A DNA stretch of 64,000 nucleotides, from the IMG/VR virus record IMGVR_UViG_3300037091_000060, positions 36,421 through 100,420 of that record; one strand, 5' to 3'. The position numbers and the translations under genes were made by a program. The notes under the pieces are model-generated. The model ran no database searches, was not told where the DNA came from, and saw only the letters and a list, made by a program, of their open reading frames with translations. How positions within the stretch are numbered: the first letter of the stretch is position 1; each line of letters begins with the position of its first letter. This DNA is from a virus. Positions 31,451 through 62,791 of this stretch are shown piece after piece.

Positions 31451-32592
31451 TACATCCCTCTACCTGTACTTCCGGTTTGAGTTATAGCAGTCGTTGACTG
31501 ACGTTCTACATCATGAGCAATCCACTGTTGAATGAACGCGTTCTTCTGCGTCTCGGTTAATCCTGTTGCCTTTGCCAAAAACGCTGCGATGCCGCGCTGT
31601 CTATACAGTTGTGCGCGCCCGTCATCAACAACCGCGAGTGCTTCTGAGAGGAACAAATTGTTGAACACGTCGGAGAACTGATCGGGAATCGGTGCCCAAC
31701 TCAGGTTGTTCACAAAACCTGCTTGAGCAGCATTCGCCACGCCAGCGTGAGTTTCGTTAACTTGCGTTGTAGTTGTACCTACTAAGGTCGTGGATGTGGA
31801 AGAGGTCACTGTGAATGCAACATCGTTGCCAACGTTAGTAAAACCAGTCATCGTGAAGATCATACCAGCGTACGCGTTCGCTGCACCGCCAGTAATAGTT
31901 CCCGTGTATGTGGTGGTGGCACCAGAGACCGTAACTTGTGTCAAAACCAAAGACGACACACCATTGGGATTCGCTACGACCAATGATGTCGCGCTGCTGC
32001 TCACAACTGTGAACGAACCACTGTTTATTAACCCCATCCCGGTTATGACCGCTGTCGAACCTGCGGGGAATGATGCAGGATTGAAAACACCAGTGTACGT
32101 TGTATTTCCGGCAGACGCATTAGCAACTGCGGTAATGAAGAACGGCCCGAACTGAGCGGCAGTCTTCTGGTACGTAACTGTGACCGTATAAATCTTATCG
32201 GGGACGCCGAGGAAACGGAACACGCATCCCGCTACTGAGTCTGAGGACTGTACCGACATCGAGTTCGGGCGCTGTTGAAAAGCAGAAACGGCCAACGACG
32301 CGGTGTTAAGGAGGTCTTTTATCTCCCAGATATTACCTTGGTCGTCCGTAAGAGAGACCTTCTCCACGAACGCTAGGTCAACGACGGCTGCTCGGGTGTA
32401 ATCTTGAGTCCCTACTACAGTCGAAAACGTTATCTCGGCGCGATTCCAATACCAAGTCAACGGCGGATTCATCATCGTGTTGCGAATCATTGAAGCGATT
32501 GAAACCGCAGGTTCGTTTCCACTTCCCGCCGTCAAAGGGCTGTACTGAATATATGGACGAGCGAAATTAATTGTGTTTTGTAGGGTGAGCAT
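31450..32592 (-). CDS. tail adaptor-like protein (tail tubular protein A type) with two beta inserts
   Basis: The 380-residue protein has an N-terminal helical part (LQNTINFARPYIQYS, MIRNTMMNPPLTWYWNRAE) and a C-terminal part (FNNLFLSEALAVVDDGRAQLYRQRGIAAFL) like podovirus adaptor proteins that sit under the portal. Between them lie two copies of a beta module of about 65 residues (GNTTYTGVF...; GATTTYTGTITGGAANAYAG). ATG 32592 overlaps the GIY-YIG stop as TAATG. Confidence 0.6.
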   Translation of the reverse strand: MLTLQNTINFARPYIQYSPLTAGSGNEPAVSIASMIRNTMMNPPLTWYWNRAEITFSTVVGTQDYTRAAVVDLAFVEKVSLTDDQGNIWEIKDLLNTASLAVSAFQQRPNSMSVQSSDSVAGCVFRFLGVPDKIYTVTVTYQKTAAQFGPFFITAVANASAGNTTYTGVFNPASFPAGSTAVITGMGLINSGSFTVVSSSATSLVVANPNGVSSLVLTQVTVSGATTTYTGTITGGAANAYAGMIFTMTGFTNVGNDVAFTVTSSTSTTLVGTTTTQVNETHAGVANAAQAGFVNNLSWAPIPDQFSDVFNNLFLSEALAVVDDGRAQLYRQRGIAAFLAKATGLTETQKNAFIQQWIAHDVERQSTTAITQTGSTGRGM

Positions 32593-33152
32593 TAAGCAGC
32601 CTCTGTGCAGTACTTACAATTTTGCGAAGTCAACCCACGGCTAATGTGCCAACGGGTGTGCATGCCTTTAGGGCCGCCAATCTTGCCGCTGATTTTTCCA
32701 TATACCCGGCCAGCAGCAACCCTGTCATAGTCAGGCGAAAAGATACCTTTCTTTTCTTTCTCCATCAGAGCACCGCAAGCCAACCCACCTTTAGAAGAGA
32801 TAGATCGAAGATGCCCGGATTCAACCATCATACGTCCAGCCATACGACCTCCCACAGCACCAAATTCTGATGTGAGGCCGAAATATTTCTGGTCTAAAGG
32901 AGAGAATTGATTTGACAAAGGACCACTACGAAACGTGTTGGCGCGAAGAATTTCCATGTGTTCAGAAGCAACTAAATGCCACAGGAAATCATCACTATCG
33001 TCCTCGATGGTCTTTGCGAGTTTCAGAAAATGATTTGAGTATTTCGTTTTATCGTATTCACGCCAACGAACTTCTAGCGCACGAACTGTGCTGCCCACTT
33101 TAACAACCTCTCCGGTTGTCTTGTCTACAACGTGATAGATTTGTCCAATCAT
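32592..33152 (-). CDS. GIY-YIG family nuclease, probable mobile gene
   Basis: The 186-residue protein opens MIGQIYHVVDKTTGEVVKVG, where IYH and VKVGST take the places of the GIY and YIG strands, followed by WREYDKTKY. The middle has glycine-rich repeats (GAVGGRMAGRMM, GKISGKIGGPKGMHTRWH) of the kind seen in DNA-binding tails of GIY-YIG homing nucleases, and it ends CKYC. ATG 33152 stands one base after the stop of the upstream tail gene; the frame to 33188 overlaps that gene. It splits two tail adaptor genes, as homing genes often do. Confidence 0.7.
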   Translation of the reverse strand: MIGQIYHVVDKTTGEVVKVGSTVRALEVRWREYDKTKYSNHFLKLAKTIEDDSDDFLWHLVASEHMEILRANTFRSGPLSNQFSPLDQKYFGLTSEFGAVGGRMAGRMMVESGHLRSISSKGGLACGALMEKEKKGIFSPDYDRVAAGRVYGKISGKIGGPKGMHTRWHISRGLTSQNCKYCTEAA

Positions 33153-33153
33153 A

Positions 33154-34737
33154 TTAAGGTCTGGGATAATTATACGGCCAACTGCCACCTTGGAAGTTGT
33201 TGCGACTACGGGCTGCGCCGAATACGGTACGCTGTGGAACGAACTTGTTCTCTTCCAACTCGCGATCTTCTTTCACGCGAAGGGCTAACAGTGCCTTTTC
33301 CCACAACGCCCACTCGGGTTGGAACTTCGCGAATACGGCCTTCTCTGGGGAGCGGCGGTAAAGTTGCGCAACGAAGCCGTCGCGGAAGTGCTGCTCTAAC
33401 TCATCTGGCAGCGGTGCTAGTGTCTGGTTCAAGTCAACGAAGCGGACTGGCTTCATTTGTGATACTATATTAAACTCCCACTCCGCGCCTGTCTGTGAAG
33501 GTACCGGGGTGAAACGGAAGCCCCAGCCGTTCGGGTCCAACACGGTCCACTGGGTCGATGCGCCTGTGCCGCTGACGGTCGTACCGGGAACTGCGTTACG
33601 TGCCGCGACTGGTGGTGTGGTCCCTTCGATGCCGTACGTAGTTATCAGCAAAAAGTTACCGTTCGAATCACGAATCTGAGTGATCGGATTCTTTGGCTGA
33701 CTATTGTTAGCTGAGTTGTTCACGTAGCCGCCTGACTCGTATGTGCCGGGGTTCACGGCCATCGTAACAGTTATAACTGGCGCAGTGAGCACGGTGTCGT
33801 TGATGTTTGTGACAACCCAGTCGCCGTTATACGCTGTGGGAAACGCGCTCGCGATGTTCATCGTCTGCCCGACTATGATGGTCGGGAGGATGCTCGTTAT
33901 CGTGAAGGTCGCAGAACCACCGCCCCACGAGGCCGCAGTTACGACTGAGCCTGTCGGCTGAAGGTAGACCGAACCGGGTTGCGGGTTGTTGCCAATGGTC
34001 GGGCCGCCTACGTTTGCTTGTCCCCATACCCCGTAATACAACGTACGGTTCGGGAACCAGTTGCACTTGAAGCCGGGATTGCCTAGACCTATACGAGCAC
34101 CGCCCGAGTAAGCCGCTGTTAGTTGAGGTAGTTGACGACCAACTTCGACGGTCGTGTACGGTTTCGGAATCGATGAGTTGTTGATGTCGAATGCGATGCC
34201 GCGCTCCAACCACGATAGATTCAAGAGCGGGCCGCCTGCTGAGACAGCGGTAGCCGCGTGTGTTTCCGGCACGCCGCCTGCGTTTCTTAGCACCAGCGCG
34301 CCCGCTGATGAGGCTACGCACATGAACGTGCCGTTGTTGCCTGCCTGTACAAAGCCTGTGATTACGAACGGTATGCCGACGTAACCGCCGAACGCTCCGT
34401 CAGGCATCGTGCCTGCATAAGTTGTGTAGCCTTGGGAGGCCGAGACCAGAGTAACCGCAGTGAGCGTCAACGTGCCACTCAAGCCTGCTGCATTCACTAC
34501 AGCGTAGTCCTGCTGAAAGCTGTTGCTAAAAATCGGAGGGACGTTGAACTCATTCCACTTGAACGGAAAAGGAACGGCGCAGATCGCAGTCATAACCTTA
34601 TTGGCGATGGACAGTGCGACTACCTGTGTAAATCCCGCAGCGTTGATGACTGGCTCTAAATCGCCGTACGTCTGACAGTCGTCGACTATGTTTTGCAACG
34701 TGACTGTCGACTGGTTCGAAGTGTTATAGATTGACAT
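33154..34737 (-). CDS. second tail adaptor / connector-like virion protein
   Basis: The 527-residue protein resembles the next structural gene in layout: a helical N-terminus (LQNIVDDCQTYGDLEPVINA), beta inserts, and an end with LPDELEQHFRDGFVAQLYRRS that matches the adaptor C-terminal helix. Residues about 93-168 are one copy of the shared beta module (YTTYAGTMPDGAFGGYVG ... NNGTFMCVASSAGALVLRN). ATG 34737 has AAGGTGA upstream. It is probably a head-tail connector component. Confidence 0.55.
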   Translation of the reverse strand: MSIYNTSNQSTVTLQNIVDDCQTYGDLEPVINAAGFTQVVALSIANKVMTAICAVPFPFKWNEFNVPPIFSNSFQQDYAVVNAAGLSGTLTLTAVTLVSASQGYTTYAGTMPDGAFGGYVGIPFVITGFVQAGNNGTFMCVASSAGALVLRNAGGVPETHAATAVSAGGPLLNLSWLERGIAFDINNSSIPKPYTTVEVGRQLPQLTAAYSGGARIGLGNPGFKCNWFPNRTLYYGVWGQANVGGPTIGNNPQPGSVYLQPTGSVVTAASWGGGSATFTITSILPTIIVGQTMNIASAFPTAYNGDWVVTNINDTVLTAPVITVTMAVNPGTYESGGYVNNSANNSQPKNPITQIRDSNGNFLLITTYGIEGTTPPVAARNAVPGTTVSGTGASTQWTVLDPNGWGFRFTPVPSQTGAEWEFNIVSQMKPVRFVDLNQTLAPLPDELEQHFRDGFVAQLYRRSPEKAVFAKFQPEWALWEKALLALRVKEDRELEENKFVPQRTVFGAARSRNNFQGGSWPYNYPRP

Positions 34738-35692: not shown

Positions 35693-36391
35693 CTATACGC
35701 TGGCGTTATAGCTTGCGACAGGGTCCGATTGTCCGAGAGCCTCTTGGTCTTCGATGTCAACGTAACGCGTAGCGTTGCGCTTCTCCCAAAGACTGCGGAA
35801 GTATCTCGCGGAAATTACGTTCGGCGATGGTACGCCGAAGATTTTGTGGCACTGCTCTTCTGTGATAATCTCTTTCTCAACTAACTGAACTGCAACCGTG
35901 CGCCAGCCTCGGAAGGCCTCGCCGTTCGGGATGCCGTGGGCGTCCAACTTCAACACCGACCACTCGTACATCGCCGGAACTTGAATGAAACAGACGTAAC
36001 GGAGTTTATCGTGGCGGTACGGCGGGGTCGCCCAAAGACCGAGGGTGCCTCTCAAACCGTTGTCCATCACGATTGCCTTGATTCCGCCTTCTTTCAACTT
36101 CGCCATAAAATCGATAGTGGAGATCGGATTGATCTTGCGCGCGACCTCGTTGGTCAACTGCTCCTGATCGTCCCACTTGTACGCCGCTGCCATCTTGTTC
36201 GAGATTTCTTTCTCGGCGGCGAATGACTCTCTCGCAAACTCTTTATACTCTTCTGGGTGCGAAACCCACTTGGGCGTGCCGCCCGCGAGCATCTTTTGAA
36301 TGCTCTCATGTGTAGCGTTCACATCGTGGTGCTCATTGTACGGCTCTGCGTCGATACCCTTGATGAACGGCTGATCTGGTTGATGAATCAT
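35693..36391 (-). CDS. hypothetical virion-operon protein
   Basis: The 232-residue protein has no motif I can name. It is globular with mixed strands (IKAIVMDNGLRGTLGLWATP, LRYVCFIQVPAMYEWSVLK) and a basic helix near the end. ATG 36391 overlaps the HNH stop as ATGA. Its place after the capsid gene suggests a head-completion or decoration role, which is only inference. Confidence 0.45.
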   Translation of the reverse strand: MIHQPDQPFIKGIDAEPYNEHHDVNATHESIQKMLAGGTPKWVSHPEEYKEFARESFAAEKEISNKMAAAYKWDDQEQLTNEVARKINPISTIDFMAKLKEGGIKAIVMDNGLRGTLGLWATPPYRHDKLRYVCFIQVPAMYEWSVLKLDAHGIPNGEAFRGWRTVAVQLVEKEIITEEQCHKIFGVPSPNVISARYFRSLWEKRNATRYVDIEDQEALGQSDPVASYNASV

Positions 36392-36801
36392 TGTTGGTAC
36401 CCCTTTAAGTATTCGATTGCGTTGGTGAGGATGATTATGGAGTCTTTGAATCTACCGAGACCGAGATTGCAATCTTCGCATAGGAGACCGCGACGGCACT
36501 TGTCACAACTTCGCATTGGGCGGCAGCACTTATGGTTGTGGTCTATGTGCGGTGTCCCTTCAAACTCTTTACGACAGACGGCGCAACGATTATCTTGTTT
36601 CGCCTTCTTGGCATCGTACTGCTCTTGCGTGAGACCATGTCGTCGTGACCGATGAACCGCAAGTATTCTGTCTTTATTTTTGCGATAGTAAGGTCCGTAA
36701 TACTCTCTATTACGAGTCAGTTCATCTTCACGGTGGCTATCATAGAATCTTTTGTTTTTCTCGCTCGACGTGAGCGGTGCCTCTGGATTAATTCTTTTCA
36801 T
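36388..36801 (-). CDS. HNH endonuclease VII-type nuclease (beside the capsid intron)
   Basis: The core CAVCRKEFEGTPHIDHNHKC with CDKCRRGLLCEDCNLGLGRF is the recombination endonuclease VII fold: two cysteine pairs and the HxDHxH site. The N-terminus is a basic helical segment with RFYDSHREDELTRNREYY. ATG 36801 is preferred to GTG 36813 because GGAG stands seven bases before it and GTG is itself part of the regulatory pseudoknot. It sits 100 bases downstream of the split capsid gene and has its own promoter, and could have mobilised the intron. Confidence 0.85.
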   Translation of the reverse strand: MKRINPEAPLTSSEKNKRFYDSHREDELTRNREYYGPYYRKNKDRILAVHRSRRHGLTQEQYDAKKAKQDNRCAVCRKEFEGTPHIDHNHKCCRPMRSCDKCRRGLLCEDCNLGLGRFKDSIIILTNAIEYLKGYQQ

Positions 36802-36900: not shown

Positions 36901-36993
36901 TTACTGAATTGCCGGAACTGAATCAATGAAGCGAATACGCTGGGTATTCACGCCAGTAGCAGGTGGCAACGTCACTGTTTGATGGAATTTGTC
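36901..36993 (-). CDS. major capsid protein, exon 2
   Basis: After the intron an open frame DKFHQTVTLPPATGVNTQRI and ten more residues ends at TAA 36903-36901. It has no start codon or ribosome site of its own. If exon 1 ends after CTT at 37222 and exon 2 begins at GAC 36993, the phase is kept and the protein has 345 residues. The exact splice sites are not proven. Confidence 0.6.
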   Translation of the reverse strand, partial: DKFHQTVTLPPATGVNTQRIRFIDSVPAIQ

Positions 36994-37221
36994 CTATGTG
37001 TTACATTACTTTTCAGTAATGGGTTGGTCATTTCTGCCAACCACTCATGGTTTGATTCCCATGAGAGCAGACTATCGCATCGCCTTTCGGCGTTCTCTCG
37101 CTTAGTCGTTCACGGTGCCTTTCGGCTTCCGCCTTGTTCCCGTCTCAGGGTTCAAGTCAATCAGAGAGAATTCTCACTCGTACTACGTTACTGAGTGACC
37201 CCGCTCTTAAGCTGCTAGCTT
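36994..37221 (-). ncRNA. group I intron in the capsid gene
   Basis: The core elements can be paired in order. P3 is UUCUCUC (37170-37164) with GAGAGAA (37099-37093). P4 is CUUG/CAAG and P5 is CCC/GGG, joined by AA on both sides. P6 carries a GAAA-capped hairpin. P7 is GACUA (37107-37103) with UAGUC (37074-37070). P8 is CGCC-GAAA-GGCG at 37092-37081. Three P9-type hairpins follow, the last GAAA-capped (37021-37004). It carries no ORF. A nine-pair stem (37226-37218/37212-37204) probably is P1/P2, but I could not find the usual U-G pair, so both ends are approximate. Confidence 0.8.
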
Positions 37222-38166
37222 AAGAGATGTTGAGGAACACCATCCACCGATTGTTGAGACGGGGTCAAAGCTGGAAGCAGGAGCATCGGTCACAACTCTG
37301 CAATCGATGGTCTTCCAATCGCCCTCGTCCAAGTCAGTGTCGCCCGGAACCTGCAACCATACACCGATCATCGCGTAATTTCCGAACACATAAGTTCTGT
37401 ATCCGATCTTACCCGTGCCGAGGTAGTTGGCCGTCGTGGTTACGAACGGGGTCTGCATGAAGCCTATGTTCGTGCCCGGTAGGACGATGACCTTATTCTG
37501 GTCGCTGCCCGCCATTGCGTCGAACTTCTCCATGTTCTCGTACTTCCACAAGTCAACGATGCTGTTGTTCACAGTCGTTGCGTTGTAGATGTCGCCCAAC
37601 ACGTTCGGGCTGACTGCGCCCAAGAACATGCCACGCTTGCAAGGCAATACGTTCTTTGAAACAAGCTGCTGCTTCAATTCACGGATTGTGCCTAGGTCTA
37701 GCGTGTACGGAGATGCTAGCAACGTGTTCTGGTTGACCTGTGAGTCTACGCCAGATGCGCTGTCAGCAACTGCGCTGTACAACTCGCTGATGGACTGCCC
37801 AGCTTGGTAGCCGAGTTCCACTGCGCTGTTGCCCACCAACTCATCGATTGCGGCTGCGATTGCAAACGAACTGAAGTTGGCGTAGTTGTTCCACTCACCA
37901 ATCTGGGCGGGTGAAGACAACTGAGTGATGACTTCCGGGTTTCCCACGGTGCCGTCAGCACTCTGTACAATGTCGCCCGTGAGCGTGTTGTACTGGAAAA
38001 ACGTACGGTTTACGCCCATGTGAAGACCTTGTACACGTCGTTCTGCTGCTCCAACGAATGCGTTGGTGTTGCCCTTAAGGTTCGGAATCAATTCCTTATC
38101 GAAAATGATTGCCTGTGCCGTTAGGACGTTTGATACGTTTGACCCCGAAGGGTTTGGACCGCTCAT
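37207..38166 (-). CDS. major capsid protein, exon 1 (HK97-fold)
   Basis: The 319-codon frame encodes a phage capsid: an N-terminal extended arm, GVNRTFFQYNTLTGDIVQS, a long spine helix (FAIAAAIDELVGNSAVELGY), a P-domain-like region and LGTGKIGYRTYVFGNYAMIG. It follows a scaffold gene as usual. The stop at 37209-37207 lies inside the intron stem, and the last codons after about 37222 are intron sequence. The natural C-terminus is exon 2. There is no clear ribosome site before ATG 38166; a UUCG-capped hairpin stands upstream. Expected function: main shell protein. Confidence 0.85.
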   Translation of the reverse strand: MSGPNPSGSNVSNVLTAQAIIFDKELIPNLKGNTNAFVGAAERRVQGLHMGVNRTFFQYNTLTGDIVQSADGTVGNPEVITQLSSPAQIGEWNNYANFSSFAIAAAIDELVGNSAVELGYQAGQSISELYSAVADSASGVDSQVNQNTLLASPYTLDLGTIRELKQQLVSKNVLPCKRGMFLGAVSPNVLGDIYNATTVNNSIVDLWKYENMEKFDAMAGSDQNKVIVLPGTNIGFMQTPFVTTTANYLGTGKIGYRTYVFGNYAMIGVWLQVPGDTDLDEGDWKTIDCRVVTDAPASSFDPVSTIGGWCSSTSLKLAA

Positions 38167-57537: not shown

Positions 57538-57611
57538 TGGTTCCGGCGCGTGGACTCGAACCACGATAAACAGATTCAGAATCTGCTGGCCTACCGTTGG
57601 CCGACATCGGA
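57538..57611 (-). tRNA. tRNA-Gln (CTG)
   Basis: Full cloverleaf with anticodon loop TTCTGAA, T-loop TTCGAGT and encoded CCA. One A-C mismatch in the acceptor stem. Confidence 0.9.
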
Positions 57612-57620
57612 ACTGAAAAT

Positions 57621-57695
57621 TGGTTGGGCAAGAACGATTCGAACGTTCATCGAGCGGATTCAAAGTCCGACGTGTTACCGTTACACTATCGCCCA
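57621..57695 (-). tRNA. tRNA-Gln (TTG)
   Basis: Cloverleaf with loop CTTTGAA, T-arm GAACG/CGTTC, encoded CCA. The first pair of the anticodon stem is a T-C mismatch. Confidence 0.9.
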
Positions 57696-57703
57696 ACAGA
57701 AAA

Positions 57704-57777
57704 TGGTCCTAGCTAATCGAGTTGAGCGATTTCTACTTGTGTTTCAAACAAGGGTGCAACCCCTACACCAAACTAGG
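57704..57777 (-). tRNA. tRNA-Phe (GAA), abnormal T-loop
   Basis: Acceptor, D and anticodon arms are good (loop TTGAAAC). The T-stem AATCG/CGATT is intact but its loop is CTCAACT instead of the usual TTCGANT. CCA is encoded. It may be damaged or need special folding. Confidence 0.75.
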
Positions 57778-57784
57778 ATTAAGA

Positions 57785-57869
57785 TGGAGGAAGAATGATG
57801 AGTCGAACACCACACCTTTCGGTGCCCTCCGGGTTCAAACCGGATTGCGAGCCACTCGCAGAATCTTCC
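57785..57869 (-). tRNA. tRNA-Ser (TGA)
   Basis: Class II tRNA with loop TTTGAAC, long variable arm with a GAAA-capped stem, encoded CCA. Position 73 is T rather than the usual G of serine tRNAs. Confidence 0.85.
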
Positions 57870-57878
57870 ATAAATTGT

Positions 57879-57927
57879 GGTCGTGAGCACCCTACTCTTT
57901 ATGGGGCTGCTCTTCGTTCTGCCGACC
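57879..57927 (-). ncRNA. tRNA-sized structured element A
   Basis: GGTCG/CGACC close an element that contains a long inner hairpin (GAGCA-CCC with GGG-TGCTC around loop CATAAAGAGTA). It sits between two tRNA genes but lacks D and T arms. It may be a decayed tRNA or a separate small RNA. Confidence 0.4.
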
Positions 57928-57941
57928 AGCAGATTTAAAAT

Positions 57942-58033
57942 TGGCGGACGATGTAGGATTTGAACCCACGATACCCATTTAAGAGTATGGCGCGTTAGCA
58001 CCGCGCTGCGATCAGCCTCTCTGCCAATCGTCC
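57942..58033 (-). tRNA. tRNA-Ser (GCT)
   Basis: Class II tRNA, anticodon stem GCGCG/CGCGC with loop GTGCTAA, long variable arm, G73, encoded CCA. Confidence 0.9.
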
Positions 58034-58039
58034 GTAAAA

Positions 58040-58114
58040 TGGCATGAGAGGATGGACTCGAACCACCGTAGTCGGGTTTGGAGTCCGACGTCCTAGCCGC
58101 TGAACGACTCTCAT
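58040..58114 (-). tRNA. tRNA-Trp (CCA)
   Basis: Acceptor ATGAGAG/CTCTCAT, loop CTCCAAA, T-loop TTCGAGT, G73, encoded CCA. Confidence 0.9.
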
Positions 58115-58127
58115 GTAGAAAATGAAT

Positions 58128-58200
58128 TCTGGGGAGCGCGCCTAACGTCTCCAATCTTCCGTTCGCTTGGAACGGGTGCTCGTATCGACGACTTCGAACT
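58128..58200 (-). ncRNA. tRNA-sized structured element B
   Basis: A region with a CCGTTC/GAACGG hairpin and outer GAGC/GCTC pairing lies in a tRNA-length gap. No cloverleaf could be drawn. The function is unknown. Confidence 0.25.
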
Positions 58201-58212
58201 GCCAGAAAAAAT

Positions 58213-58300
58213 TGGTGGATAGTGAACGACTCGAACGTTCGAAGCCCACAAGGGGCATCTGGTTTACAGCCAGAGGCAATTGCCGCTATGCGAACCATCC
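58213..58300 (-). tRNA. tRNA-Tyr (GTA)
   Basis: Loop CTGTAAA, long variable arm as in bacterial tyrosine tRNAs, A73, encoded CCA. Confidence 0.92.
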
Positions 58301-58309
58301 ACAGAAAAT

Positions 58310-58377
58310 TGGAGCCGGAAGTTATGGTTACGACCCAAGGCTTCATCCCCTCATGAAGGAACTTATCCCCTCCGACA
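58310..58377 (-). ncRNA. degenerate tRNA-like element C with CCA
   Basis: A seven-pair acceptor (GTCGGAG/TTCCGGC), T73 and CCA are present. The central hairpin CTTCAT/ATGAAG has an irregular loop, and no normal T-arm can be formed. It looks like a decayed or unusual tRNA. Confidence 0.45.
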
Positions 58378-58384
58378 TAGAAAT

Positions 58385-58458
58385 TGGAGCGGCGTATGAG
58401 AGTCGAACTCATACCTGAACCTTGGCAAGGTTCCACGCTACCGCTACGCCAACACCGC
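58385..58458 (-). tRNA. tRNA-Gly (GCC)
   Basis: Acceptor GCGGTGT/ACGCCGC, loop TTGCCAA, T73 as in glycine tRNAs, encoded CCA. Confidence 0.92.
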
Positions 58459-58466
58459 TCAGAAAA

Positions 58467-58540
58467 TGGAGCACCGAAAAGGAATCGAACCTTTACGTCC
58501 GCTTTACGAAAGCGGCATCATGCCACTAGATCATCAGTGC
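58467..58540 (-). tRNA. tRNA-Thr (CGT)
   Basis: Loop TTCGTAA on stem CCGCT/AGCGG, T73, T-loop TTCGATT, encoded CCA. Confidence 0.92.
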
Positions 58541-58546
58541 AAAAAT

Positions 58547-58621
58547 TGGAGCATCGACGTGGAATCGAACCACGGCGTTCGCATTACAGGTGCGACATCA
58601 TGACCACTAGATCATCAATGC
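58547..58621 (-). tRNA. tRNA-Thr (TGT), C33
   Basis: All arms are intact and the anticodon loop is CCTGTAA, so the normally universal U33 is C. T73 and encoded CCA. Confidence 0.88.
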
Positions 58622-58628
58622 TCAAAAC

Positions 58629-58702
58629 TGGAGCCAAGACGTGGAATCGAACCACGACCTAATCCTTACCAAGGATTCGTTCTGCCACTAGACTATCTAG
58701 GC
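58629..58702 (-). tRNA. tRNA-Thr (GGT)
   Basis: Loop TTGGTAA on AATCC/GGATT, T73, encoded CCA, one T-T mismatch in the acceptor. Confidence 0.9.
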
Positions 58703-58710
58703 TCAAAAAT

Positions 58711-58787
58711 TGGAGCGGCGTATCGGATTCGAACCGATTCTCGGAGTTTGGAAAACTCATGTGCTAGCCGTTGAACACTAACACCGC
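58711..58787 (-). tRNA. tRNA-Gly (TCC)
   Basis: Acceptor GCGGTGT/ACGCCGC as in the other glycine tRNA, loop TTTCCAA, T73, encoded CCA. Confidence 0.9.
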
Positions 58788-58789
58788 GT

Positions 58790-58877
58790 TGGTTGCGCAG
58801 GTGGGAGTCGAACCCACGAGTCCCTTTCGGGATGAGGCTTATGAGACCTCTGACATCGGCCACTAGTCGACCGCGCA
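58790..58877 (-). tRNA. class II tRNA with CAT anticodon
   Basis: Anticodon stem GAGGT/GCCTC with loop CTCATAA reads AUG, but the variable region is a long arm (TCCC-GAAA-GGGA) and position 73 is A, as in leucine tRNAs. The D-arm GACTAGTGGCCGATGTC is also leucine/serine-like. Identity is uncertain. Confidence 0.8.
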
Positions 58878-58885
58878 ATTGAAAT

Positions 58886-58959
58886 TGGTATCTAACCGTG
58901 GATTCGAACCACGATAACGCCCCTATCAAGGGCGAGTCCTACCGTTGGACGAGTCAGAT
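58886..58959 (-). tRNA. tRNA-Ile (GAT)
   Basis: Loop TTGATAG on CGCCC/GGGCG, A73, T-arm CGTGG/CCACG, encoded CCA. Confidence 0.92.
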
Positions 58960-58961
58960 AT

Positions 58962-59036
58962 TGGTGGACGGTGGCGGATTCGGACCCCCACTTCATCGGT
59001 GCAAGCGACGCGTGCTCCCATTAACACTAACTGCCC
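58962..59036 (-). tRNA. tRNA-Ala (TGC)
   Basis: Loop CTTGCAC, A73, encoded CCA. Mismatches in acceptor and T-stem and a TCCGAAT T-loop make it somewhat degenerate. Confidence 0.82.
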
Positions 59037-59046
59037 ACTGTAAAAT

Positions 59047-59120
59047 TGGTACCGCTACAGGGACTCAAACCCTGTCTACGAGGTTGAAAGCCTCGTTGCC
59101 TATCCATAGCAGATAGCGGC
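59047..59120 (-). tRNA. tRNA-Glu (TTC)
   Basis: Loop CTTTCAA on CGAGG/CCTCG, T-loop TTTGAGT, encoded CCA. Confidence 0.9.
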
Positions 59121-59130
59121 ATTGAAAATT

Positions 59131-59204
59131 TGGCACGGCTGCGGAGAATCGAACTCCGGCCACGCGCCTGAGAAGCGCATGTTCTGCCACTAAACTACAA
59201 CCGC
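59131..59204 (-). tRNA. tRNA-Glu (CTC)
   Basis: Loop TTCTCAG, T-arm CGGAG/CTCCG, G73, encoded CCA. Confidence 0.9.
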
Positions 59205-59212
59205 ACTGAAAA

Positions 59213-59250
59213 TTGGCGGGTCCCACCGAACCGAAGTCCGTATTTTCCCC
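59213..59250 (-). pseudogene. truncated tRNA 3' fragment (element D)
   Basis: A stretch of about 38 bases ends in an encoded CCA and has a tRNA-like spacer on both sides, but only a T-arm/acceptor-like 3' part remains. Confidence 0.4.
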
Positions 59251-59259
59251 ATTGAAAAT

Positions 59260-59335
59260 TGGTAGGCAATAAGAGAATCGAACTCTTCCGCTCTGGGTGT
59301 AGGCCAGATGTATACGACCAGTTTACTAATCGCCT
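59260..59335 (-). tRNA. tRNA-Val (TAC), C33
   Basis: Stem TCTGG/CCAGA with loop CCTACAC; position 33 is C, not U. A73, normal T-loop, encoded CCA. Its 5' end overlaps the stop of the HNH gene by two bases. Confidence 0.87.
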
Positions 59336-59744
59336 ATCTATCCAATCGAGACTCCCTACAATAGTGCGCTAATCCTGTCCAGCGACCCCTATCTACTGTA
59401 AAGTTTTCAATTGGTTCAAACTTTTTACATCCAACGCACCACGACATACCGTCTGGTGCAATCTTACGCTTGGCGACGCCGCCATGAAACGTGTGCGGCT
59501 TATTACATCTCATGTGAGAGAACGCCACATTATCTAAATCCCAAAACAAGTCAGCGGAGAGACCTTCCCACGGCTTGACGTGCTCAATGCTTAATTCGTC
59601 GATGTTCTCTATTTTCTCGCTGCATCGAACACAGACATTGTCGTCGTACTTCGCAAGTTGACGAAACAAGACCATCTTACGAAGCCTGCTGCACGCTGCG
59701 CCGTGAGACATACCTAAAGTTTCTACTGCCCGTTTGTTTGACAT
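59334..59744 (-). CDS. HNH endonuclease (classical HNH type) inside the tRNA array
   Basis: The 136-residue protein has CVRCSEKIENIDELSIEHVK, then FWDLDNVAFSHMRCNKPH: a Cys pair, the EH of the HNH site and N...H. The C-terminus adds CVGCKKF and HYC, a second metal knuckle. Its N-terminus looks like a DNA-binding helix (VETLGMSHGAACSRLRKM). It differs from the endonuclease VII-type genes and has no pseudoknot; AGGAG precedes ATG 59744, in the loop of a small GGTC/GACC hairpin. Confidence 0.82.
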   Translation of the reverse strand: MSNKRAVETLGMSHGAACSRLRKMVLFRQLAKYDDNVCVRCSEKIENIDELSIEHVKPWEGLSADLFWDLDNVAFSHMRCNKPHTFHGGVAKRKIAPDGMSWCVGCKKFEPIENFTVDRGRWTGLAHYCRESRLDR

Positions 59745-59785
59745 AATCGTTGGTCTCCTTGACCGTTGATTGATGTGCAGAAAAT

Positions 59786-59861
59786 TGGTGGACCCAGAAG
59801 GAATCGAACCTTCATCCCTCGCTTTAAGAGAGCGGTACTCTAGCCATTGAGCTACGAGTCC
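59786..59861 (-). tRNA. tRNA-Lys (CTT)
   Basis: Loop CTCTTAA, T-arm GAAGG/CCTTC, A73, encoded CCA. One C-A mismatch at the base of the anticodon stem. Confidence 0.9.
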
Positions 59862-59869
59862 ATAAAACT

Positions 59870-59944
59870 TGGTGCGCCGCCCGAGGCTCGAACTCGGACA
59901 TTGGGCTTAAAAGGCCCCATTGCTGCCGCTCGCATCCGCAGCGC
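59870..59944 (-). tRNA. tRNA-Lys (TTT)
   Basis: Loop CTTTTAA, acceptor GCGCTGC/GCGGCGC, T-arm CCGAG/CTCGG, A73, encoded CCA. Confidence 0.9.
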
Positions 59945-59998
59945 ATATTTAATAAAAGTGCCATATTTACACATGCTGTAAATATTGAATCTTGGTCG

Positions 59999-60284
59999 CG
60001 CGATAGCCCGGTTTCTGTCTAGGACGAACATTCCTCTAAGCCTGCTACCCGACTCTCATCGCGCTCAACAAGCGCTCAAGTCCTATTTGCAGTTGCACCC
60101 GTGTGGAGTACCTTCGCTCGAATGGCGAGTAGTTTGCTTATCAGGCAAACAACTCAGCACGAAGCCTTACCCGTACGCTTGCGCGTCCCGCAACTTCCAC
60201 GGCACGATGTTGAGATGTGACCGGAACTTCCTCGATATGTGATCGCATATATTTCTTGCGAATTATATACTCTCGCATATCGCG
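59999..60284 (-). ncRNA. rnpB: RNase P RNA (compact form)
   Basis: In RNA sense the gene has the conserved blocks of bacterial RNase P RNA in order: GAGGAAGUUCCGG (like GAGGAAAGUCCGG, near 60233-60221), GUGCC soon after, GCAACUGCAAAUAGG (near 60096-60082), GGGUAGCAGGC, AGAGGAAUG-UCGUCC and GACAGAAACCGGGCUAU at the 3' end. CGCGAUA at 60284-60278 pairs with UAUCGCG at 60005-59999 as P1. At about 286 bases it is shorter than the 377 of E. coli, with a reduced specificity domain. It removes 5' leaders from tRNAs and lies among them. Confidence 0.85.
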
Positions 60285-60374
60285 TTCGTCTACGCTACCA
60301 AAATTTTGCCCGATACTATGTTGGGTCGGAACCGCCCACTCGCTGTGTTATAGTCTTGCGGCATGACTCAAACT
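60285..60374 (-). other. spacer between tRNA-Cys and RNase P RNA
   Basis: Ninety bases with a GGGCGGTTCCGACCC imperfect hairpin. No promoter of the type seen elsewhere could be found, so RNase P RNA may be cut from the tRNA transcript. Confidence 0.3.
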
Positions 60375-60448
60375 TGGAGCATGAAGAGTGAATCGAACAC
60401 TCGATGCCTCTTTTGCAGAGAGGTAGCTTACCACTTGCCGATTCATGC
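60375..60448 (-). tRNA. tRNA-Cys (GCA)
   Basis: Perfect acceptor GCATGAA/TTCATGC, loop CTGCAAA, T73, encoded CCA. Confidence 0.92.
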
Positions 60449-60454
60449 AAACTC

Positions 60455-60532
60455 AGTAGACACCCTACCGCTGTCATCGCAACCCTGTCTTTATGCCTTT
60501 ATGGACAGGGCGGCTATTTCGATAGGTACAAG
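60455..60532 (-). ncRNA. tRNA-sized structured element E
   Basis: GCCGC/GCGGT outer pairing encloses a seven-pair hairpin CCCTGTC/GACAGGG. It occupies a tRNA slot in the array but is not a cloverleaf. The sequence CCATAAAG in its loop also occurs in element A. Confidence 0.35.
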
Positions 60533-60534
60533 AT

Positions 60535-60627
60535 TGGTGCGCCACACAGGATTCGGAATTCGGACCTGTACGCCTGTTAGGGCAGAGGGTTTTAAATCCT
60601 CCGTGTCTGCCATTTCACCAGCAGCGC
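60535..60627 (-). tRNA. tRNA-Leu (TAA) with duplicated T-loop
   Basis: Class II tRNA, loop TTTAAAA, A73, encoded CCA. T-stem ACAGG/CCTGT is intact but encloses 14 bases, TCCGAAT repeated twice, instead of 7. Confidence 0.85.
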
Positions 60628-60633
60628 GAAACT

Positions 60634-60876
60634 TTAATCGTCTACGATGTGTTCTTCACACGAGGTGTGATTCTTTGCTCGTGGTTTGTTGCAATCTACG
60701 CGAAAACAGGTGGTCGGTTCTACATACTCTTTAACCACAATTTCTTGGTTTTCGTAAACATAGCCTGCCGCTACCGGAACAGTCTCGCCGGAATAAATCT
60801 TTTTAGGGAAGTCTGAGCCAACCCTGACTTCGATGATACCCGGACCCAGATTCACAACTAGCACGCGTGTAGTCAT
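60634..60876 (-). CDS. small protein encoded inside the tRNA array
   Basis: The 80-residue protein has a beta-rich first part (RVLVVNLGPGIIEVRVGSDF) and a C-terminal CFRVDC ... CEEH set that could bind zinc. ATG 60876 follows AAGGAAG. No family is recognised. It stands between tRNA-Leu and the class II TAT tRNA. Confidence 0.6.
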   Translation of the reverse strand: MTTRVLVVNLGPGIIEVRVGSDFPKKIYSGETVPVAAGYVYENQEIVVKEYVEPTTCFRVDCNKPRAKNHTSCEEHIVDD

Positions 60877-60892
60877 TGTCTTCCTTTCGAAT

Positions 60893-60981
60893 TGGTTGTC
60901 GACGATGGTGTCGAACCATCCTGCAAGCCTGATCTAGGCCAAGGGTTTATAAGACCCTGCCGCGAGCCGTCGCAGTCGACA
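60893..60981 (-). tRNA. class II tRNA with TAT anticodon
   Basis: Perfect acceptor TGTCGAC/GTCGACA, loop CTTATAA on AGGGT/ACCCT, long variable arm (GCCT/AGGC), A73, encoded CCA. The D-arm is short. AUA reading with a leucine/tyrosine-type body makes the amino acid unclear. Confidence 0.78.
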
Positions 60982-60990
60982 ATTGAAACT

Positions 60991-61077
60991 TGGTCGCCAA
61001 CCAGAGACTCGAACTCTGACGCCCTTTCGGGCACCGGGTTTTGAATCCGGCGTGTCTGCCAATTCCACCAGCAGGCG
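60991..61077 (-). tRNA. tRNA-Leu (CAA)
   Basis: Class II, loop TTCAAAA, variable arm GCCC-GAAA-GGGC, A73, encoded CCA. Confidence 0.92.
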
Positions 61078-61084
61078 ATAAACT

Positions 61085-61159
61085 TGGAGGACCGCTTCGG
61101 ACTTGCACCGAAATTTCGTGGTTCGTAGCCACGCGACGTGTCTATTGGTCTAACAGTCC
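61085..61159 (-). tRNA. tRNA-Arg (ACG)
   Basis: Loop CTACGAA on CGTGG/CCACG, T-loop TGCAAGT, T73, encoded CCA. A34 would need editing to inosine by the host enzyme to read CGC and CGA. Confidence 0.9.
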
Positions 61160-61164
61160 AAAAC

Positions 61165-61239
61165 TGGAGCACCCACTCGGATTCCAACCGAGGTCATCAC
61201 GGTAGAAACGTGAGGTCCTGTGCGCTGAACGACAGGTGC
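61165..61239 (-). tRNA. tRNA-Arg (TCT)
   Basis: Loop TTTCTAC on TCACG/CGTGA, T-arm CTCGG/CCGAG with loop TTGGAAT, T73, encoded CCA. Confidence 0.9.
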
Positions 61240-61246
61240 ATAAAAT

Positions 61247-61331
61247 TGGTAGCCCGCAGAGGACTCGAACCTCTACGCCCGAAGGCGTCCGTTTCTAAGA
61301 CGGACATGTCTGCCAGTTCCATCAGCAGGCC
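61247..61331 (-). tRNA. tRNA-Leu (TAG)
   Basis: Class II, loop CTTAGAA, variable arm CGCC-TTCG-GGCG, A73, encoded CCA. Confidence 0.92.
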
Positions 61332-61341
61332 ACAGAAAAAT

Positions 61342-61431
61342 TGGGCGGCATTTATCAGCGCGCGCCGTCCATCGCGCTTCGGGTTCCAATCAAGGAACCG
61401 AAGCCATTGCGCCTAACCAGCTAGCGACGCC
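61342..61431 (-). ncRNA. tRNA-like element F with long hairpin
   Basis: GGCG/CGCC acceptor-like ends followed by CA, and a long hairpin (CTTCGGTTCC with GGAACCCGAAG, loop TTGATT) plus a GCGCG/CGCGC hairpin. Its 5' part overlaps the last codons of the HNH gene. It is not a standard tRNA. Confidence 0.35.
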
Positions 61432-61925
61432 ACGTCACGGGAGCTACCCGGAAATGTTATAGGCTTCTGTTGTACAACCTCTTTCATCCATGTCAGGTAA
61501 TTCATTACCGCTTCGTCTGACATTTTAGAAAACAAACCTTCGATACTGTTACAATCCCTATGAATGAACCCTCTCGGTTCACCTGTCTCGTGGTTGTGGT
61601 CAAAACAACTACCATTCGAACCTTGGAGACTCAACACGCCACCACAAGCGACACAAAACCCTTTCTGTGATTCCCAGATTTTTAACATCTCATCTGGCGT
61701 TATTGTCGGAGACGAGTACCCTTTAGACTTTGCCAACGACCTGAGTCTTGGGAGTAAAACTCTAAATCTTCCCACAAGACCACTTGGGCCTTCGCCCATC
61801 CTACGTGCTCTCACGCGCCGACACTCGGACGTTACCGAACATTTCTGACAAATAAAATACGTTCTTCCGTGTCCGTTTTTCTTCGGCTTATTCCTTTCAT
61901 TGCCACAAATAGAGCATAACTTCAT
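61413..61925 (-). CDS. HNH endonuclease VII-type nuclease in the tRNA array
   Basis: The 170-residue protein has two metal knuckles: CSICGNERNK with CQKC at the N-terminus, and the nuclease core FCVACGGVLSLQGSNGSCFD HNHETGEPRGFIHRDCN. HNHETG is the active region of endonuclease VII-like enzymes. ATG 61925 has GGAGG upstream inside a pseudoknot. It separates tRNA-Asn from tRNA-Leu. Confidence 0.83.
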   Translation of the reverse strand: MKLCSICGNERNKPKKNGHGRTYFICQKCSVTSECRRVRARRMGEGPSGLVGRFRVLLPRLRSLAKSKGYSSPTITPDEMLKIWESQKGFCVACGGVLSLQGSNGSCFDHNHETGEPRGFIHRDCNSIEGLFSKMSDEAVMNYLTWMKEVVQQKPITFPGSSRDVASLAG

Positions 61926-61933
61926 TTCACCCT

Positions 61934-61969
61934 CCGCAATAGAGTGTCGGGGGTGATTGCGGCACCCCC
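61934..61969 (-). promoter_or_regulatory. Shine-Dalgarno-sequestering pseudoknot, copy 4
   Basis: Stem GGGGGUG/CACCCCC (61969-61963 with 61955-61949), loop CCGCAAU (61962-61956). The loop is complementary to AUUGCGG (61940-61934), which leads into the GGAGG ribosome site. Confidence 0.78.
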
Positions 61970-61988
61970 AACCGATGTACGTACAAGA

Positions 61989-62063
61989 TGGCTGACCCAG
62001 TAGGATTCGAACCTACACCCTCTTCATTAACAGTGAAGTGCCCTGCCGTTAGACCACAGGTCA
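61989..62063 (-). tRNA. tRNA-Asn (GTT)
   Basis: Loop CTGTTAA on CTTCA/TGAAG, G73, T-arm GTAGG/CCTAC, encoded CCA. Confidence 0.92.
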
Positions 62064-62072
62064 GTAGAAACT

Positions 62073-62146
62073 TGGTCGAGAATGGGTGAATCGAACACCC
62101 GCCTCATGTATCCGAAACATGGAGACTACCACTATCAGAACTCTCG
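62073..62146 (-). tRNA. tRNA-Pro (CGG)
   Basis: Loop TTCGGAT on CATGT/ACATG, A73, T-arm GGGTG/CACCC, encoded CCA. Confidence 0.9.
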
Positions 62147-62154
62147 ATAAAAAT

Positions 62155-62228
62155 TGGCGCGGGTACCGGGAATCGAACCCGGCCTACCACAGTGACAGTG
62201 TGGCGTCATGCCGACAGACCCTACCTGC
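62155..62228 (-). tRNA. tRNA-Asp (GTC)
   Basis: Loop CTGTCAC on CCACA/TGTGG, G73, T-arm CCGGG/CCCGG, encoded CCA, one A-C acceptor mismatch. Confidence 0.9.
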
Positions 62229-62238
62229 GTCGTAAACT

Positions 62239-62312
62239 TGGTCGAAAGTGCTGGAGTCGAACCAACGCCACATGCTTCCAAAGCACGCATGCTACCGTAA
62301 CACTTACTCTCG
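62239..62312 (-). tRNA. tRNA-Pro (TGG)
   Basis: Loop TTTGGAA on CGTGC/GCATG, A73, encoded CCA. Confidence 0.9.
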
Positions 62313-62322
62313 ACAAAAATGT

Positions 62323-62395
62323 TGAGTACGGTGGGACTCGAACCCACATCGGCGCGCGTTATGAGCGCGCTGCTTTACCATTAAGCTACGTCCTC
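62323..62395 (-). tRNA. tRNA-Met (CAT)
   Basis: Class I tRNA with loop CTCATAA on GCGCG/CGCGC, A73. The encoded 3' end is ACA rather than CCA, unlike the rest of the array, so host CCA addition would be needed. One G-A acceptor mismatch. Confidence 0.85.
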
Positions 62396-62400
62396 GACAA

Positions 62401-62462
62401 TGACATGTGCAACTGTGCGGGAGCTACCCGCGTCTGCACTGTGCCCGCGTAAGCAGGCGAGC
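62401..62462 (-). other. nested hairpin between tRNA-Met and the 62485 gene
   Basis: In RNA sense GTGCA/TGCAC encloses GCGGG-TAGCT-CCCGC. It may stop or shape the transcript; no gene is seen in this gap. Confidence 0.35.
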
Positions 62463-62484
62463 CATCGCTTTAAAGAATAAACTT

Positions 62485-62667
62485 TTACTTCGCTGCTGGT
62501 GCCGCCTTTTTCGCTGCCTTCAAAATGAACAGGTTACGAATCGTGATAGCTGCTGAACCAGCCGCCATCATTTCGAACGGTACCGCGCCGAGGTAGTTAT
62601 AAAATCCGTGCTGCGCGAGAATCGAACCTATGACTCCGGTTCCGATCAACTTCACGCCCGCGTCCAA
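62485..62667 (-). CDS. small membrane protein
   Basis: The 60-residue product has two hydrophobic stretches (LIGTGVIGSILAQHGF, MMAAGSAAITIRNLFIL) and a basic alanine-lysine tail. The visible start is TTG 62667, but the frame stays open upstream with coding-like sequence (YEDRPGARAFGTFLDAG), so the true start may be a rare codon such as ATT near 62715. No ribosome site is clear. Confidence 0.5.
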   Translation of the reverse strand: MDAGVKLIGTGVIGSILAQHGFYNYLGAVPFEMMAAGSAAITIRNLFILKAAKKAAPAAK

Positions 62668-62716
62668 GAACGTGCCGAACGCTCTCGCGCCGGGGCGGTC
62701 TTCGTAAATTAAAATT

Positions 62717-62791
62717 TGGGGTGGGCACCCAGTATCGATCTGGGGCCGAGAGGTTCACAACCTCCCGTGCTACCATTACACCATGCTCACC
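62717..62791 (-). tRNA. tRNA-His (GTG)
   Basis: Loop TTGTGAA, C73 opposite an extra 5' G (position 62791), the histidine identity pair, encoded CCA. T-loop is ATCGATA. It is the first tRNA after the array promoter. Confidence 0.88.

Follow-up and report, generated by a model that had tools for sequence, protein, structure and literature searches.

The putative major capsid gene of the virus, a soil phage, was found to be interrupted by a 240-nt element that, on the sequence evidence, is supported as a group I intron for which splicing is predicted. The window analyzed here comprises 64,000 nucleotides of a virus record 100,420 bases long. The reading as a whole, that of a group I intron in the capsid gene that is mobile, most likely by collaborative homing, was assigned a probability of approximately 0.93. 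Splicing itself is regarded as almost certain.

The capsid ORF is located on the minus strand within a head module arranged in the order terminase, portal, three further genes, capsid, and HNH gene. The corresponding reading frames are as follows:
44727-42493 (-): terminase, in the head module upstream of the capsid gene
42505-40400 (-): portal, in the head module upstream of the capsid gene
38166-37207 (-): capsid ORF as read, ending at TAA 37209-37207

The window capsid protein was not recognized in profile searches of PHROGs or Pfam. Among annotated proteins, the closest to it is the "major head protein" of Tunturiibacter phage Tunturi_3 (37% identity), and the probable identity as a capsid protein rests on the annotation of this homologue and on the gene order after terminase and portal. 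Because Tunturi_3 supplies the nearest annotated relative, the host may be one of the Acidobacteriota. The structure predicted for the 341-residue capsid protein from 15 homologues has a mean pLDDT of 30 and was unusable for fold comparison. Elsewhere in the window (57538-62790, minus strand), about 32 tRNA genes, together covering nearly every amino acid, form an array. The tmRNA called in this array, which overlaps a pair of tRNA-Lys genes, is probably spurious.

A scan of viral contigs for relatives of the capsid gene provided 45 loci. The interrupted gene was divided by comparison with these relatives as follows:
37233-38166 (-): 5' exon of the major capsid gene, residues 1-311 and the first base of codon 312; gapless alignment to intron-less relatives up to residue 311
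36993-37232 (-): group I intron, 240 nt, no ORF; preceded by U, ending in G, missing in intron-less relatives, with the frame restored by exact excision
36901-36992 (-): 3' exon, the rest of Tyr312, 29 residues (KFHQTVTLPPATGVNTQRIRFIDSVPAIQ), and the stop; 100% match in locus L001 and near-identity to intron-less relatives

Past residue 311, the intron-less capsids continue with YKFHQTVTLPPATG...IDSVPAIQ and the stop. Their uninterrupted reading, ...GGWCSYKFHQTVTLPPATG...IDSVPAIQ and the stop, is the same sequence as that obtained by exact removal of 36993-37232 from the window. From the DNA comparison the junctions are ...TGG TGT TCC T / CAACATC ... CACATAGG / AC AAA TTC CAT CAA, where the slashes mark the cuts. 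The predicted join connects ...GGTGTTCCT directly to ACAAATTCC with the spanning peptide GGWCSYKFHQ, and the spliced product contains 311 residues, Tyr312, and 29 further residues, for a total of 341. The last base of the 5' exon is U, which forms a U.G pair at the splice site in the unconstrained fold, and the last base of the intron is G. Each of the 12 C-terminal introns (eleven distinct) is preceded by U and ends in G, and removal of any of them restores the same reading frame.

A preliminary description of this DNA had placed the stop of the capsid frame at 37207 inside a hairpin, and TAA 37209-37207 does lie within a perfect one (CUCUUAAGC/GCUUAAGAG, 37226-37218 paired with 37212-37204). 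The downstream capsid-like frame with no start of its own was likewise recovered, ending at 36901. The intron, given earlier as the approximately 228 nt after the stop, instead begins 25 nt before the stop by comparison with the intron-less relatives. The earlier figure of 345 residues for the spliced capsid is incorrect because eight intron-encoded residues (STSLKLAA, the eight codons before the stop) had been kept; intron removal does restore the sequence of the intron-less homologues, at 341 residues. Frame restoration, the core, and covariation thus uphold the interpretation of a group I intron splitting the capsid gene, while the original splice sites and product length had to be replaced.

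The structural elements assigned to the intron are listed below:
37199-37235 (-): P1, CCU/C (37235-37232, slash at the splice site) with GGGG (37202-37199), U37233.G37201 at the 5' splice site; unconstrained minimum-energy fold
37226-37204 (-): P1 extension hairpin carrying the in-frame TAA 37209-37207; unconstrained minimum-energy fold
37174-37198 (-): P2, UCACUC paired with GAGUGA; fold, with a loop that is variable in L003, L010, and L033
37093-37170 (-): P3, 37170-37164 with 37099-37093, enclosing P4, P5, P6, and P6a; compensatory changes
37156-37153/37136-37133 (-): P4; compensatory changes in P4-P5
37150-37148/37141-37139 (-): P5; compensatory changes in P4-P5
37131-37129/37115-37113 (-): P6; compensatory changes in P6-P6a
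37126-37124/37119-37117 (-): P6a; compensatory changes in P6-P6a
37070-37107 (-): P7, guanosine-binding helix, GACUA 37107-37103 with UAGUC 37074-37070; invariant in 11 introns
37092-37089/37084-37081 (-): P8, inside P7; compensatory changes
37065-37059/37050-37044 (-): P9; nearly all pairs compensatory
37042-37037/37027-37022 (-): P9.1; nearly all pairs compensatory
37021-37015/37010-37004 (-): P9.2; fold only, not conserved throughout the relatives

The elements P3, P4, P5, P6, P7, P8, and P9 are thus present in the order of a group I core, as previously described, with a pseudoknotted P3/P7; P1, P2, P6a, P9.1, and P9.2 are added here. The free fold of the whole element has a z of -6.2 relative to shuffles and places the U.G pair of P1 exactly at the splice site. 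In the aligned cores of eleven distinct capsid introns, 95.4% of the cells in the proposed helices are paired, and both-sided changes appear in 26 of the 42 pairs. The covariation score for these introns is 0.521, compared with 0.176 for shuffled alignments and at most 0.094 with slid partners. Compensatory change was detected in every tested helix except P7, which never varies in the 11 introns and so carries no covariation signal. The proposed pairing of P7 rests on its position and sequence only.

A covariance model of the intron core gave 183.6 bits on the window intron and detected no second copy in the 100-kb record. When this model was applied unfiltered to 7 kb of T4, the two best matches, although weak (E about 0.2), overlapped the cores of the nrdB and td introns. 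The Rfam group I model (RF00028), proposed earlier as a check, gave no match in the window intron at gathering or permissive thresholds. With a T4 control containing td and nrdB (L050, NC_000866 138500-145500), Rfam at gathering thresholds also reported no group I intron, and its silence in phage DNA therefore means little. Introns of subgroup IA, which is common in phages, contain P7.1/P7.2 helices between P7 and P3'. In the window intron just three bases (37102-37100) separate P7 from P3', so that P7.1/P7.2 are absent, and the intron is assigned to no subgroup.

Two explanations that dispense with a group I intron were weighed against these data. The gene could encode a truncated 319-residue capsid ending at 37207, with the 3' piece as a decaying remnant, and the ORF as read does end at this position. 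This explanation is very improbable, as the 30-residue C-terminal end is encoded by all complete relatives and much of it is invariant, the 3' exon of the window is intact and in frame after exact removal, and the structure of the insert covaries. Homologous capsids ending at the 37207 stop, which the preliminary description had singled out as evidence against an intron, were found among the relatives examined solely in intron carriers. The insert could also be an element of another type (a bypassed or programmed-frameshift segment, a group II intron, an intein, or a regulatory RNA at the gene end), in keeping with the lack of a group I match in Rfam. That model, however, is blind to the phage introns of T4, and the core model places its weak matches correctly on td and nrdB. 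An intein is excluded because the frame contains stops, and the group I order of P3-P9, the pseudoknotted P3/P7, the U/G junctions, and the U.G pair in P1 all argue against another class of element, which is hardly credible.

As a group I intron, the element would fold in the mRNA into P1-P9.2 and bind guanosine in P7. The RNA would be cut after U37233 at the U.G pair in P1, and the exons would be joined after the terminal G of the intron to provide the 341-residue capsid protein. Translation of the unspliced mRNA would end at the stop codon in the P1 extension, which probably keeps ribosomes out of the ribozyme core. The intron would be mobile, most likely through the downstream free-standing Endo VII-type nuclease, which would cut intron-less capsid alleles, and repair of the cut allele would copy the intron, the 3' exon, and the nuclease gene together. 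This collaborative homing route is given even odds. The two nuclease genes that bear on it are the following:
36388-36801 (-): endonuclease VII-type HNH gene, free-standing and immediately following the capsid gene; PF02945 E 3.6e-17, phrog_2914 E 2.2e-24
L002 4157-4756: GIY-YIG-like nuclease gene of locus L002, in the same slot as window 36388-36801

The ORF call for the HNH gene opens at GTG 36813, and an ATG at 36801 is preceded by GGAGAG. An ORF-less intron with an adjoining free-standing nuclease gene is the layout of collaborative homing. Locus L002 is approximately 98% identical to the window over the flanks of this region, 41166-37238 and 36395-34844. The intervening 843 bp are not alignable as a block. 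In the window this slot contains the intron, the 3' exon, and the Endo VII-type HNH gene, and in L002 it contains an intron-less 3' exon and the GIY-YIG-like gene. Such a difference is the expected remnant of a cut capsid allele repaired from a donor phage, and the block replacement is consistent with joint movement of the intron and the nuclease gene, as collaborative homing would entail. A nuclease gene is found in the slot of 10 of 11 intron-bearing loci versus 15 of 24 intron-less loci (Fisher p 0.12; p 0.02 if all capsid introns are counted, with kinship ignored), and the link between intron and nuclease across loci is suggestive only. The downstream HNH gene and the intron are not strictly paired, as nuclease genes also occur in intron-less slots, and for this reason the homing step is no more than suggestive. 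Between the structural genes at 32592-33188 (minus strand) is a 198-residue ORF (GQIYHVVDKTTGEVVKVGST...) that by eye resembles a free-standing GIY-YIG-type nuclease; it has no PHROG or Pfam match.

The intron could instead have spread by reverse splicing into the abundant capsid mRNA, or by ordinary phage recombination, a possibility to be taken seriously at somewhat under even odds. The intron family is spread over capsid genes belonging to several PHROG families and, within one gene, over about ten sites, a distribution for which one site-specific nuclease is insufficient, and nuclease genes are present in the slot without introns. A role for the neighboring nuclease is favored by the replacement of intron and nuclease gene as one block between near-identical phages and by a layout that mirrors the tested F-CphI/psbA case (PMC6083498).

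Introns of the same family appear at about ten places in the 341-codon capsid gene, four of which are within 20 nt:
After the first base of Trp309: L015, L016, L039
After the first base of Tyr312: window, L003, L010, L033
After the second base of Phe314: L034, L045
After His315: L026, L027
Four residues before the stop: L033, L039
Near codons 21, 28, and 30: L034, L024, L025, L036, L035
Trp92: L045; core weakly recognized by the family model

When five loci with two or three introns were spliced in silico, the complete capsid frame was recovered and every cut had the U and the G. For L035 the frame was restored with U/G cuts as far as a further insert at codon 94. Three introns are present in L034, the first two separated by 21 nt of exon, and the equivalent exon in L024 is 22 nt. 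This short exon is flanked by the introns near codons 21 and 28 in L034 (2047-3000) and L024 (1928-3000), and also in L025 and L036; in these four loci one of the paired introns contains an HNH-like ORF. Inserts of about 0.2-1 kb occur at capsid codons 92-94 in L035, L036, L037, and L044, none of which has ends that restore the frame at a U/G junction. Those of L035, L036, and L037 contain a LAGLIDADG-type ORF, and that of L044 is short. In L083 and L111, homologies to the Tunturi_3-type capsid are scattered in several pieces over several kb, and the L083 contig has up to five intron cores. In the intron tree, introns from the same site tend to group (10 changes versus 14.7 in shuffles), with most branches poorly supported.

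The distribution of the lineage was surveyed with two DNA patterns. The first, from the P6-P3' core and blind to the host gene, identified 68 viral contigs, in which the core model detected 109 introns (up to five per contig). Major capsid genes contain the intron in 52 of the 68 contigs (tblastn and PHROG matches on representatives). Of these, 33 are of the Tunturi_3 type and the others match PHROGs 9953, 1357, 14242, and 267/283; of the remaining contigs, five have the intron in portal genes and the rest in other or unknown genes. The second pattern, from P7'-P9.1 and likewise blind to the host gene, matched at least 119 stretches. Among the matches listed are 105 new places, of which capsid genes account for about 78 and portal genes for 12. 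The same pattern occurs twice in the genomes of 84,980 bacterial and archaeal species. Across both scans, major capsid genes of several PHROG families are the hosts in roughly three quarters of the contigs, which were not dereplicated, with both patterns derived from capsid introns; PHROG identity was taken from representatives and groups were joined by BLAST of flanking ORFs. Portal protein genes with the same intron family inside or adjoining were observed in L091, L093, L094, L078, L115, L148, L179, and L196. The capsid preference is not absolute, because matching core fragments are also found in the split ribonucleotide reductase gene of cultured Roseobacter phage CRP-118 and the split DNA polymerase gene of cultured phage phiEa1H. 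There is about one chance in two that the lineage of the window intron, one of short group I introns, is specialized in phage head genes.

The intron accounts for the misread C-terminus of the window capsid and for the fact that, in metagenomes, many soil phages seem to have broken capsid genes. The window and L002 would constitute a natural plus/minus pair for collaborative homing at the capsid gene. Given the apparent capsid bias, it becomes testable what directs group I introns to some phage genes rather than others. If true, a bias across capsid families would need capsid-linked spread, for example by nucleases targeting capsid genes or by reverse splicing into the most abundant late mRNA.

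Introns in phage capsid genes are already known. In mycobacteriophage LittleE, splicing of a group I intron in the major capsid gene was proven by RT-PCR (PMC3706429), and this gene shares with that of the window the U before the intron, the G at its end, and an in-frame stop soon after the 5' splice site. The LittleE intron, however, is about 820 bp with an endonuclease ORF inside, whereas the 240-nt window intron has no ORF and a nuclease gene outside, and the capsids are unrelated. In cyanophage S-PM2, F-CphI is specific for the intron-less psbA gene and the intron blocks cutting (PMC6083498). There, as in the window, an ORF-less group I intron is accompanied by a free-standing Endo VII-motif nuclease gene beside the split gene, but the split gene is psbA rather than a capsid gene, and cleavage of the intron-less allele is a prediction for the window nuclease.

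Core genes broken by group I introns are also found in the crAss-like Zeta phages, which have intron-rich capsid genes, one in five pieces (PMC7886860), and in the Jug phages, with a mean of 18.5 introns per genome and metatranscriptome support for splicing of 37 of 76 predicted introns (PMC12363816). These gut Bacteroidota phages carry introns in many genes, whereas the present 100-kb record has one intron, from a lineage found mainly in head genes. In Erwinia phage phiEa1H (FQ482084), an intron-core match over 48 nt lies between DNA polymerase parts A and B, and an HNH gene directly follows the 3' half of the split gene, as in the window; the interrupted gene differs, and the family-model match is weak (16.7 bits, E 0.19). 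The paper on the Tunturi phages makes no mention of introns (PMC11924767). In Caudoviricetes sp. MW202674, a core of the same family (88 bits) lies between two annotated pieces of a P22-type coat protein, which represents another capsid family and has no intron annotation. The possible novelty, which may equally prove real or not, is a lineage concentrated in the head genes of several capsid families.
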